Source: Bifidobacterium pullorum subsp. gallinarum (GTDB lineage Bacteria > Actinomycetota > Actinomycetes > Actinomycetales > Bifidobacteriaceae). From it: 64,000 nt of DNA. Position 1 is the first letter of the stretch. Every line of letters starts with the position of its first letter. Shown one piece after another: positions 58,241-61,432 of the stretch. The position numbers were made by a program, and so were the translations under genes. Below the pieces are notes generated by a model. That model was not told the DNA's origin. It saw only the letters and a list, made by a program, of their open reading frames with translations, and made no database searches. The stretch lies in contig NZ_JGYX01000002.1 of the NCBI RefSeq assembly GCF_000741215.1, positions 434,001-498,000 of the forward strand. Reading direction: 5' to 3'.

Positions 58241-59352
58241 CGGCGGCCAAGGGCAGGGGCGGCAAGCGTCCGTCGATGTTCGAAGTGGCCAAGCTGGCCG
58301 GTGTGAGTCATCAGACCGTCTCCCGCGTGATCAACCATTCCCCGGACGTGTCCGAGGTCACGCGCGCCAAGGTGCAGGCCGCCATCGACCGTCTGGGCTA
58401 CCGTCCGAGCAATTCGGCCCGCGCGCTCGCCTCGCAGCGCTCGCGCACGATCGGCCTGATCGCCGGCGGCCTGCGCTTCTTCGGGCCGATCTCCGCCATC
58501 TCCTCGATCGAGACGATGGCCCGCGCCCATGAGCTGTTCATGTCCGTCATGCTGGTGCATGAGGCGTTCTGCTCGCAGAAGGATTTCGAGACGCTGTGCG
58601 ACACGTTCGACGAGCAGAACGTGGATGCGTTCATCTTCCTGACGCCCACCGACGCCATGTTCTCGGCCGCCTGCCACGCGCCGGTGCAGCAGCCGCGCGT
58701 GCTGATCACCTCGACGCACGGCGCGGTGGACATCCGCACCGCCATGGCGGCCATCCGTCCCATGGATCAGCGCAAGGTGGCGCTGGTGGGCATCGACCAG
58801 TGGGGGGCAATGGCCGAGGTGATGCGGCTGGTCGCGGAATACGGGCATCGTCGTGCGCTGTATTTCGCCGGCCCGCAGGAATGGCGCGACGCGGGCACCC
58901 GATTGGCGGCGTGGCGGCAGTTGTGCGCGGAGCATGCCGTGGAGTGCGTGGTCGAGCAGTGCGAGTCCTGGGAGTCGGCCGAGGCGTATACGCGGATGAA
59001 CCATGTGCTTGAGGATTTCGGCAGCCGTGGCGCCGCGTTGCCGTCGCTGGTGGTGACGGCGAACGACAGCCAGGCGGTGGGCGTGATGCGCGCGCTGCAC
59101 GAGCATCGGCTGCGGATTCCGCAGGATGTGAGCCTGGTGGGCTTCGACGATATGCCCGCGATGGATAACATGCTGCCGCCGTTGACCACGGTGCGCCCCG
59201 ATTTCGAGCAGTTGGGCGTGGCCGCGATGAAGCAGGTGCTGCATCTGCTGGGTGAGGGGCCGGAGCCGACGTTCGCGGCGGCATCGCACGGCGTGGGGCT
59301 AGTGCCGGCGAAGGTGATGCTGCGCAACTCGCTGGGCCCGGCCGCGCACTGA
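58237..59352 (+). CDS. LacI-family transcriptional regulator, probable araBDA repressor
   Basis: 371 residues: an N-terminal helix-turn-helix and hinge (MFEVAKLAGVSHQTVSRVIN near 14-33, then LGYRPSNSARALASQRS) and a periplasmic-binding-protein-like sugar sensor (IGLIAGGLRF to about 355). It lies directly before araBDA, whose promoter carries two LacI-type operators, so L-arabinose or a related pentose or oligosaccharide is the likely inducer. It is co-translated with the Maf-Nudix gene upstream. Between its stop codon and the ara promoter lies the palindrome array. Confidence 0.9.
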   Translation: MTAAKGRGGKRPSMFEVAKLAGVSHQTVSRVINHSPDVSEVTRAKVQAAIDRLGYRPSNSARALASQRSRTIGLIAGGLRFFGPISAISSIETMARAHELFMSVMLVHEAFCSQKDFETLCDTFDEQNVDAFIFLTPTDAMFSAACHAPVQQPRVLITSTHGAVDIRTAMAAIRPMDQRKVALVGIDQWGAMAEVMRLVAEYGHRRALYFAGPQEWRDAGTRLAAWRQLCAEHAVECVVEQCESWESAEAYTRMNHVLEDFGSRGAALPSLVVTANDSQAVGVMRALHEHRLRIPQDVSLVGFDDMPAMDNMLPPLTTVRPDFEQLGVAAMKQVLHLLGEGPEPTFAAASHGVGLVPAKVMLRNSLGPAAH

Positions 59353-59359
59353 CGTCGAC

Positions 59360-59592
59360 GCGGCTGTCGGCCGTCATGACGACACACCCTCGGGCGGTTG
59401 GCCCAAAGTGTGTGTTGTCATATGTCCATGACGACACGCCCTTTAACGGTGGTTTGGAGTCCGTGTCGTCATACAGCCGTGACAACACGGCATCTGAAGG
59501 AATCGTTGGAGGGCGTGTTGTCGCGAGCGGACGACGACACGGCTTCGTGCGGTTGGCTGGGGAGGCGTGTTGTCATGCGGACATGACGACAC
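59360..59592 (+). repeat. Tandem array of 26-bp palindromes at 51-52 bp spacing
   Basis: Four palindromes of the form GTGTYGTCR-N8-YGACRACAC occupy 59412-59437, 59463-59488, 59515-59540 and 59567-59592. Each has nine-base arms and exactly eight bases between them. A fifth, at 59360-59385, keeps only the right arm TGACGACAC. Start-to-start distances are 52, 51, 52 and 52. The 25-26 base spacers share a GGTTGG-like word, so the unit is a diverged 52-bp tandem repeat. The whole 445-base gap between the regulator and araB holds this array, the promoter and the operators, and no gene. Confidence 0.85.
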
Positions 59593-59650
59593 GGGGTTTG
59601 CGGTGCCTGGCAATCGAAATTTACAACGATGAAACAAGACACTCGTCGGG

Positions 59651-59679
59651 TTGAGATTCGGGGTGTCGGCGCGTATAAT
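59651..59679 (+). promoter_or_regulatory. Promoter of araBDA
   Basis: TTGAGA (-35), a 17-base spacer and TATAAT (-10, perfect consensus). Transcription would start near 59686, about 110 bases before araB. Confidence 0.8.
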
Positions 59680-59692
59680 CGGCACTACAAAT

Positions 59693-59706
59693 TGTGAGCG
59701 CTAACA
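59693..59706 (+). promoter_or_regulatory. LacI-type operator O1
   Basis: TGTGAGCGCTAACA, a near-perfect palindrome with central CG, typical of LacI-family sites. It starts about seven bases after the predicted transcription start, where a bound repressor blocks initiation or elongation. Confidence 0.8.
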
Positions 59707-59724
59707 CTGGCCGATGAAGGCGGC

Positions 59725-59738
59725 TGTTAACGTTCACG
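59725..59738 (+). promoter_or_regulatory. LacI-type operator O2
   Basis: TGTTAACGTTCACG, a second imperfect palindrome with central CG, 32 bases centre-to-centre from O1 (about three helical turns), suggesting two dimers on the same DNA face. Confidence 0.65.
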
Positions 59739-59797
59739 AACAACGGTAGTGCAGCGGACGGTACGGGCCGGCCGGGCAGGGTAAGGAGTCCACCACC

Positions 59798-61432
59798 ATG
59801 GCAGTAATGCAGAACGATTCCGATCAGGTTGCCGCGATCGCGGAGAAGATCCGCGCGGGCAAGACCTCGCTCGGCATCGAGTTCGGTTCCACGCGAATCA
59901 AGGCCGTCCTCATCGACGACACCTACCGCACCATCGCCTCCGGCGATTACGGCTGGGCCAGCCATCTGGAGCACGGCCTGTGGAGCTACACCGTCGAGGA
60001 GATCTGGAAGGGCCTGCAGGCCGCCTACGCCGAGATGGCCGGCGATGTGGAGGCCGCCTACGGCGAGAAGCTCACCCACATCGGTCACATCGGATTCTCC
60101 GCCATGATGCACGGCTATCTGGCCTTCGACGAGGCCGGCGAGCTGCTGGTGCCGTTCCGCACCTGGCAGAACACCAACACCCACGAGGCTCATGAGAAGC
60201 TCTCCGAGCTGTTCCAGTACAACATCCCGGAACGCTGGTCCATCGCCCACCTGTACCAGTGCGTGCTCGACAACGAGGAGCACGTCTCCAAGGTCGCCTT
60301 CTTCACCACCCTGGCCGGCTACGTGCACTGGAAGCTCACCGGCAGGAAGGTGCTCGGCGTCGGCGACGCCTCCGGCATGTTCCCGATCGATCCGACCACC
60401 CGCACCTGGGAGGCCGAATTCATCCGCCAGTTCAACGAACTGCCCGAGGTGGCCGCCCAGCCGTGGAAGCTCGAGGACCTGCTGCCCGAACCGCTCGTGG
60501 CCGGCACCCCTGCCGGCGAGCTCACCGAGGAGGGCGCCAAACTGCTCGACCCGACCGGCACCCTGCAGCCGGGCATCACGCTGGCCCCGCCGGAAGGCGA
60601 CGCCGGTACCGGCATGATGGCCACCAACTCCGTGCGCAAGCGCACCGGCAACGTATCCGCCGGCACCTCCATCTTCGCCACCGTGGTGCTCGAAGGCAAG
60701 CTCAAGGCCCTGCACCCGGAGGTCGACCTGGTCACCACCCCGGCCGGCGACCTGGCCGGCATGAGCCACGCCAACAACTTCACCTCCGACCTGAACGCCT
60801 GGGTCGGCCTGTTCGGCCAGTTCGCCGAGGCCCTCGGCCACCCGGTCGACGCGGGCACGCTGTATGGCACGCTGTTCCGCGCGGCCATCGCCGACGATGT
60901 GGACGCCAACTGCGGCGGCCTGCTCAACTATCCGTTCCGCTCCGGCGAGTTCCTGGCTGGCCTGCCCGAAGGCCGCCCGCTGTTCGCCCGCAAGCCCGAA
61001 GCCCGCATGAGCCTCGGCAACTTCATGCGCGCGCAGCTGTTCGGCGCGTTCTCGCCGGTCAAGATCGGCATGGACGTCATGACCAAGGACGAGCACGTCC
61101 AGGTCGATTCCCTCGTGGGCCACGGCGGCATCTTCACCACCCCCAAGGTGGCGCAGAAGATCCTCGCCGCCGCGTTCGACACCCCGATCAAGGTCATGGC
61201 CACCGCCGCGGAGGGCGGCGCCTGGGGCATGGCCGTGCTCGGCGACTACCTGTGGCACGCCGACGAGGACCTGGCCGACTATTTGGACAACCGCGTGTTC
61301 GCGGACGCCGAGTCGGTCACCGAAACCCCGGACGAGAAGGACGTGGAGGGCTTCGAGGACTTCTTCGCCCGCTTCCGCGCCGGTCTGCCGATCGAACACG
61401 CCGCCATTGCGGCGATCCCGCTCGAGGACTGA
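59798..61432 (+). CDS. araB: FGGY-family pentulose kinase, probable ribulokinase
   Basis: 544-residue sugar kinase that, from its place with araD and araA, should phosphorylate L-ribulose. FGGY features include the N-terminal phosphate loop region SLGIEFGSTRIKAVLID, the GHIGFSAMMHGYLAFD strand, and the C-terminal ATPase fold with VMATAAEGGAWGMAVLG. It is less like E. coli AraB than like the broad xylulokinase/ribulokinase group, so annotation as xylulokinase is a common alternative. AAGGAG nine bases before the ATG. First gene of the operator-controlled operon. Confidence 0.85.
   Translation: MAVMQNDSDQVAAIAEKIRAGKTSLGIEFGSTRIKAVLIDDTYRTIASGDYGWASHLEHGLWSYTVEEIWKGLQAAYAEMAGDVEAAYGEKLTHIGHIGFSAMMHGYLAFDEAGELLVPFRTWQNTNTHEAHEKLSELFQYNIPERWSIAHLYQCVLDNEEHVSKVAFFTTLAGYVHWKLTGRKVLGVGDASGMFPIDPTTRTWEAEFIRQFNELPEVAAQPWKLEDLLPEPLVAGTPAGELTEEGAKLLDPTGTLQPGITLAPPEGDAGTGMMATNSVRKRTGNVSAGTSIFATVVLEGKLKALHPEVDLVTTPAGDLAGMSHANNFTSDLNAWVGLFGQFAEALGHPVDAGTLYGTLFRAAIADDVDANCGGLLNYPFRSGEFLAGLPEGRPLFARKPEARMSLGNFMRAQLFGAFSPVKIGMDVMTKDEHVQVDSLVGHGGIFTTPKVAQKILAAAFDTPIKVMATAAEGGAWGMAVLGDYLWHADEDLADYLDNRVFADAESVTETPDEKDVEGFEDFFARFRAGLPIEHAAIAAIPLED

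Follow-up and report, generated by a model that had tools for sequence, protein, structure and literature searches.

A dispersed family of regularly spaced intergenic palindromes in Bifidobacterium pullorum that probably resembles REP/BIME elements

The array of palindromes that separates a LacI-type regulator gene from an araBDA-like cluster in the window (the whole 64,000-nucleotide stretch of the Bifidobacterium pullorum subsp. gallinarum genome that was analyzed) probably represents a single locus within a lineage-specific family of palindromic repeats, dispersed over intergenic sites, that behaves like REP/BIME elements (estimated probability roughly 0.6). Where several units form an array, they recur head to tail with a period of 52 bp. 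Such arrays would grow and shrink in 52-bp steps by recombination between the cores, new sites would be reached by recombination or through a putative mobilizing enzyme, and arrays would be tolerated mainly downstream of genes; hairpins in RNA or in extruded DNA may have mild effects on supercoiling or on the ends of transcripts. The likeness to REP/BIME repeats lies in placement, palindromy, and turnover, and the family would best be called an untagged, regularly phased variant of the REP/BIME-type repeats.

The window array (59360-59592) consists of four exact 26-bp palindromes and one decayed unit, with spacings of 52, 51, 52, and 52 bp (table 1). The pattern GTGTYGTCR-N8-YGACRACAC matched exactly at units 2-5 and in none of 100 dinucleotide shuffles, and all five core mismatches of the decayed unit lie in its left half. 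When the units are described by the full 46-bp palindrome model, the linkers between units 2-5 are 5-6 nt long. The array begins 8 bp past the stop codon of the LacI-type ORF, and 58 bp separate its end from the araB -35 hexamer; a 92-aa open frame that overlaps the array (59376-59654) was treated as non-coding. The exact pattern matches confirm the coordinates and spacings given in an initial annotation of this DNA, as well as the location of the array between the regulator stop codon and the araB promoter. The GGTTGG-like word that the annotation assigned to the spacers was not common to the spacers of other arrays in a spacer comparison.

Table 1. Positions of the array units and the surrounding features in the window.
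Feature	Position	Strand	Description
LacI-type regulator ORF, 371 aa	58237..59352	+	5' of the array; ORF list and coding score; presumed LacI type, by eye from the N-terminal sequence and from the initial annotation
Unit 1	59360..59385		Left half decayed, right half GACGACAC intact
Units 2-5 with 10-nt outer arms	59402..59602		Alignment A1, model R1
Unit 2	59412..59437		Exact core GTGTTGTC-N10-GACGACAC
Unit 3	59463..59488		Exact core GTGTCGTC-N10-GACAACAC
Unit 4	59515..59540		Exact core GTGTTGTC-N10-GACGACAC
Unit 5	59567..59592		Exact core GTGTTGTC-N10-GACGACAC
araB promoter TTGAGA-17-TATAAT	59651..59679	+	Consensus match only; 3' of the array and outside it
LacI-operator-like AATTGTGAGCGCTAACA	59690..59706		At the araB promoter, outside the array; presumed operator
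araB-like ORF	59798..61432	+	First gene of the araBDA-like cluster; ORF list and coding score; presumably araB, named after the initial annotation

The exact unit occurs at 20 places across the whole genome of the window (G000). A covariance model (R1) built from 39 units found 25 units at 11 loci in this genome and 20 units at nine loci in B. pullorum DSM 20433 (G064; unit counts with the strands collapsed). Four loci are common to the two genomes (the window and L048, L026 and L036, L028 and L040, L033 and L037), and both together therefore contain 16 distinct loci; the number of recognizable units per array ranges from one to four. These counts leave out four weak matches (E = 0.019, 0.11, 0.35, and 0.92) and a 60-nt match (L027, G000:C3:119483-119542) that outscores several of the counted units (E = 8.6e-6). 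The L027 unit was included in the 40- and 41-unit sets and excluded from the 39-unit set, and by its sequence the site may be a twelfth locus in G000. The single unit there (L027:5980-6040) has a seemingly lengthened left arm and follows a terminator-like hairpin in the gap that comes after a long gene. A three-unit array in DSM 20433 (L078:5920-6049, G064:C5:27409-27558) carries the variant right arm GACRACTC in all three units, which suggests amplification within the array.

The family is restricted to a narrow lineage. Of 112 Bifidobacterium genomes, 105 of them with a completeness of 90% or more, two contained the exact array pattern. B. pullorum was the sole match among 84,980 GTDB species genomes, a set that may not include the genome of the window. 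The single-unit pattern with one mismatch matched once each in G017 and G100, which corresponds to chance level, and the reversed control of this pattern also matched once, in G016. Model R1 had matches in 21 further genomes of the 112 (E up to 0.01, stricter filters), which are probably ordinary hairpins: they reach at most 32.1 bits and are 42-76 nt long, none is exactly 46 nt, and none lies in a 52-bp array. A phage or plasmid origin was rejected since the array pattern had no match in viral contigs and the interval 59352-59600 had none in the phage and plasmid collections. A literature search found no description of this palindrome family.

The short distance between the array and the araB -35 hexamer would suit a string of arabinose operators bound by the neighboring LacI-type regulator or another sugar regulator. 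However, the 21 other units at ten other G000 loci adjoin other genes, several between convergent genes, and 18 other Bifidobacterium genomes with a recovered lacI-araB gap (from 61 searched) all keep the operator-like sequence GTGAGCG.TAAC in the gap (18/18) and none carries the array. Operator function is very unlikely and can be regarded as already largely refuted, and the special tie to lacI/araBDA seen in the initial annotation is not supported, given the unrelated neighbors of the other copies and the 18 genomes whose gap lacks the array. Its view that the array is unlike an ordinary LacI operator and more than a local chance repeat is borne out by the genome-wide family and the near-fixed 52-bp period. 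In one genome (G071, L049) the lacI-araB gap contains a different short tandem repeat, which by eye resembles GGTCCGACYGAGGT.

The genes next to the arrays encode unrelated proteins. Pfam assigned ten flanking proteins at six of the 11 G000 loci to an FMN oxidoreductase, a DHO dehydrogenase, an HAD hydrolase, an alpha/beta hydrolase, an ABC ATPase, an acyl-CoA thioesterase, a UDP-galactopyranose mutase, an inositol-1-P synthase, GH31, and a ribonucleotide reductase. They share no common pathway, which favors a dispersed repeat over a regulon. None of the ten is a Cas protein, a result that bears on the possibility that 26-nt repeats alternate with 26-nt spacers in a CRISPR or CRISPR-like array. 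The regular repeat/spacer geometry fits such an array, but the repeats are approximately 70-76% identical (42 cores) and truly palindromic, the spacer ends continue the palindrome and resemble one another between arrays, and the family is spread over 11 loci, all of which makes a CRISPR origin extremely unlikely.

Based on codon-usage ORF scoring and open frames, the arrays are intergenic; gene calls come from the scoring script and the open frames, not from curated annotation, and a 247-aa open frame that overlaps the array at L032 (L032:148-891) was treated as non-coding. Among the 16 distinct loci, seven lie between co-directional genes, six between convergent genes (L034 only when two low-scoring small ORFs are ignored), and two between divergent genes (L035, and L030 only by an open frame absent from the script's calls), and one is unplaced near a contig end (L032). 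A stop codon is found within 64 bp of the array in ten of the 13 co-directional or convergent loci, and the remaining three distances are 141 bp, 154 bp, and ~340 bp (L034 from an open frame). The placement of these 13 loci resembles that of the REPs, which lie singly or clustered near 3' ends and mostly between co-directional or convergent genes (PMC3733652). The two divergent loci (of 15 placed) are not 3' of any gene and count against the REP/BIME-like reading.

The proximity to stop codons would also be expected if each unit were transcribed and folded into an RNA hairpin that stabilizes or ends the upstream mRNA. In B. breve, transcripts often end at GC-rich stem-loops that lack the features of rho-independent terminators (PMC5746004), a finding in favor of this reading. 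The window array folds far better than shuffled sequences on both strands (z = -6.7 and -6.0), but in this fold the units pair largely with one another and do not form single hairpins. Furthermore, no intrinsic terminator (a GC-rich hairpin followed by a T run) was identified within the scanned interval 59200-59820, and Rfam had no match at the arrays of seven loci other than the window, its matches nearby being two tRNAs and one SRP RNA. At L039 and L027 a different GC-rich hairpin separates the stop codon from the units. On balance, a role as RNA hairpins is rather unlikely.

The pairing of the arms bears on the same question. The alignment consensus is a 26-bp core palindrome within a looser 46-bp palindrome, and over 40 units the core letters GTGT-GTC / GAC-ACAC are near invariant, with T or C as the fifth letter and G or A as the ninth. 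The initial annotation described covarying arms, but the reverse complement of GTGTTGTCG is CGACAACAC and not CGACGACAC, and the variable Y opposes a non-complementary letter in all four intact window units. In a test set of 34 non-redundant units (41 units from the two genomes, less seven near copies), the core Y/R pair is Watson-Crick in 21 units compared with 17.7 expected (p = 0.21), and core covariation was rejected as a sign of a maintained helix for this pair. The variable pair 8/17 displays a weak excess (paired in 24 of 34 units compared with 17.0 expected, p = 0.02). The outer arms of the same units pair above chance, with a mean paired run of 2.71 compared with 1.52 by permutation (p = 5e-5) and a total of 4.97 pairs compared with 4.29 (p = 0.005). 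A pair counter applied to 39 units gave a covariation score of 0.223 compared with 0.183 in shuffles (reached in 0 of 500) and 13 pairs changed on both sides compared with 11.8 (96 of 500). All of these p values are optimistic because the units are related by duplication.

The mismatches of the core pair are eight G-T and nine A-C over 40 units, and A-C mismatches are not favored by an RNA helix. When the three variable pairs are pooled on the sense strand, G-U is slightly more frequent than A-C (17 to 11 of 60 cells, p = 0.17; 20 units from nine co-directional arrays of both genomes), a small difference in the direction expected of RNA. One unit (L026:6270-6315) folds into a perfect 20-bp stem as RNA and a 19-bp stem as DNA, and long perfect outer arms are present in few units. 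Overall, the pairing data, as far as sequences can tell, lean away from a strictly maintained RNA helix. The outcome is mixed with respect to the initial annotation, which named absence from close relatives, or random spacing without arm covariation, as signs of a neutral minisatellite: the array pattern is missing from 110 of the 112 genomes, and it is present with non-random spacing in the closest species. The half-sites of both genomes are of two linked types, GTGTTGTCG and GTGTCGTCA. Among 78 half-sites (39 cores) the combinations T4-G8 (37) and C4-A8 (22) outnumber the other two (13 and 6; Fisher p = 1e-5, a value that is optimistic because the units are related), and 59 of the 78 contain exactly one CpG.

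The most regular property of the family is its period. Between neighboring units found by the model, 23 of 25 spacings are exactly 52 bp, with one of 51 bp (in the window) and one of 50 bp; with decayed neighbors at the window and L030 added, the latter placed by a fixed-spacing pattern, the count is 25 of 27. A distance of 52 bp corresponds to 5.0 helical turns at 10.4 bp. The spacers have diverged, with a mean identity of 0.41 between arrays and 0.51 within arrays (0.27 when shuffled). In five unit pairs common to both genomes, changes affect one of 80 core positions, three of 50 positions in the inner 10, and 17 of 100 positions in the outer arms (core compared with outer arms, Fisher p = 3e-4); neither the recombinant L026 unit nor the decayed array at window/L048 belongs to this set, and the low rate in the core is partly built in because the pairs were chosen by core match. 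Judged from the sequences, the fixed period with divergent spacers is a stronger sign of constraint than the conservation of the core, and a period this close to absolute suggests a constraint not required of a purely selfish repeat. A plainer reading is that the units descend from one 52-bp ancestor and have seldom changed in length, because approximately 20 of the 26 spacer letters are outer arms.

The period and the dyad core with its near-invariant letters are what a phased protein-binding array would display, in which each palindrome would be occupied by a putative dimeric protein of the lineage, neighboring proteins would share a helix face at a distance of five turns, and the array would bend, wrap, or loop the DNA between genes or recruit an enzyme, for instance gyrase. 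The uncompensated variation of the core Y/R pair, with A-C as common as G-T, and the contrast between core and outer arms point in the same direction, the latter with the reservation on the choice of pairs given above. Against it, the orthologous window array in B. pullorum keeps a single good unit and whole arrays are dispensable at orthologous sites. Such binding is possible, if unlikely. A more specific proposal, in which a candidate protein of the B. pullorum group would assemble side by side on the palindromes (about ten intergenic sites in each genome) and insulate neighboring transcription units topologically, is quite unlikely; if true, the insulator arrays would be a renewable architectural element that is adjustable unit by unit. 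Phased operator or nucleoid-protein arrays place dyad sites on one helix face, whereas the present arrays occupy many dispersed intergenic loci and are dispensable between close genomes.

The turnover of the arrays was followed between the two sister genomes, and three of the 12 unshared loci were compared with the other genome; with two genomes, gain and loss of an unshared array look the same. The L039 array of DSM 20433 is missing in G000, where the flanks abut (95-96% identity), and the L025 array is missing in DSM 20433, where 10 bp replace 154. At the third site (L029:3734) the convergent gap carries a four-unit array in G000; in DSM 20433, the same gene pair encloses a 64-bp tandem repeat of unrelated sequence. 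The tandem repeat (L068:2600-3110; G064:C23, ~131205-131715) contains internal inverted repeats; no match to it was found in G000, and the rest of G064 gave three partial matches, all weak. No clear target-site duplication was visible by eye at the two empty sites among these three loci.

The shared loci differ in number of units. L026/L036 and L028/L040 each differ by exactly one 52-bp unit, and one L026 unit resembles the left half of L036 unit 1 joined to the right half of unit 2 (43 of 46 letters), as expected under recombination between cores. L033 and L037 are nearly identical (one substitution and one gap event over 97 aligned positions), and at L048, the orthologous site of the window array, the good unit stands among decayed ones. 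Transitions stand at 15 to 1 in the array and 16 to 6 in the right flank of L028/L040, and at 6 to 5 in L026/L036; an elevated transition rate was rejected as a family feature, as it rests on one locus pair, which is too little. A second dispersed palindromic repeat was observed at L039:6857-6939 (~83 bp, with 27-nt arms that are 93% complementary), with matches in G000 at C5:381591, C5:231604, C5:270207, C7:194643, and C7:80297.

The REP/BIME-like reading was compared with known repeat families. In BIMEs, clustered REPs alternate in orientation and are joined by conserved linkers; the units described here are symmetric and their linkers are not conserved. Like REPs, they are short intergenic palindromes that are restricted to a lineage and vary in presence and copy number (PMC3733652); REPs are palindromes of 20-40 bp that recur in intergenic space, a description that fits the 26-bp core of the 46-bp palindrome and its 25 and 20 intergenic copies, but the copy number is low for a REP family and counts against this assignment. 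Unlike REPs, they have no unpaired GTAG or CGTC end tag, since both ends are symmetric with CGTC/TGTC within both arms, and, in contrast to GTAG REPs, the Y1 transposase domain (Y1_Tnp, RAYT family, PF01797) was found in neither G000 nor G064 (it is present in five of 14 control genomes). A RAYT was therefore rejected as the mobilizer, and the lack of a tag and of this transposase argues against the REP/BIME-like reading and means that the family is not a member of the GTAG or CGTC superfamilies. CGTC REP families also occur without a dedicated transposase, and REP clusters contain opposed dimers (PMC3733652), whereas the present arrays have a head-to-tail order and a nearly constant period of 52 bp.

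Untagged REP-like families are mentioned for M. tuberculosis and D. radiodurans and are likewise palindromic without a conserved terminal motif; their description gives no fixed period, compared with 52 bp here (PMC3733652). MITEs (RUP, ERIC, and NEMIS) share the non-coding, intergenic character and the inverted repeats but have a body of 70-300 bp with terminal inverted repeats, in contrast to a 46-bp unit in arrays (PMC3733652); at the two empty sites among the three compared loci, inspection by eye showed no clear target-site duplication. The main text of PMC3733652 contains no occurrence of Bifidobacterium or Actinobacteria. Within the genus, B. animalis subsp. lactis AD011 carries a spaced palindrome (GGGACAG-N15-TGTCCC) in 21 copies, of which 20 are intergenic and mostly nearer to a 3' than to a 5' end and about ten adjoin amino-acid genes (PMC5217627). 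The two palindromes are similar in copy number, intergenic location, and 3' preference, but the arm sequence is different and section 13 of PMC5217627 does not mention fixed-period arrays.

It is unusual for spacers to drift freely while the period stays rigidly at 52 bp, and this combination makes the role of the spacing, and so of the DNA face, directly testable. The unit-by-unit differences between the two close genomes suggest the use of the arrays as a strain-typing marker. Because B. animalis has a comparable intergenic palindrome, further families of this kind may exist in Bifidobacterium. Good descriptions of small palindromic repeats come mainly from Proteobacteria.
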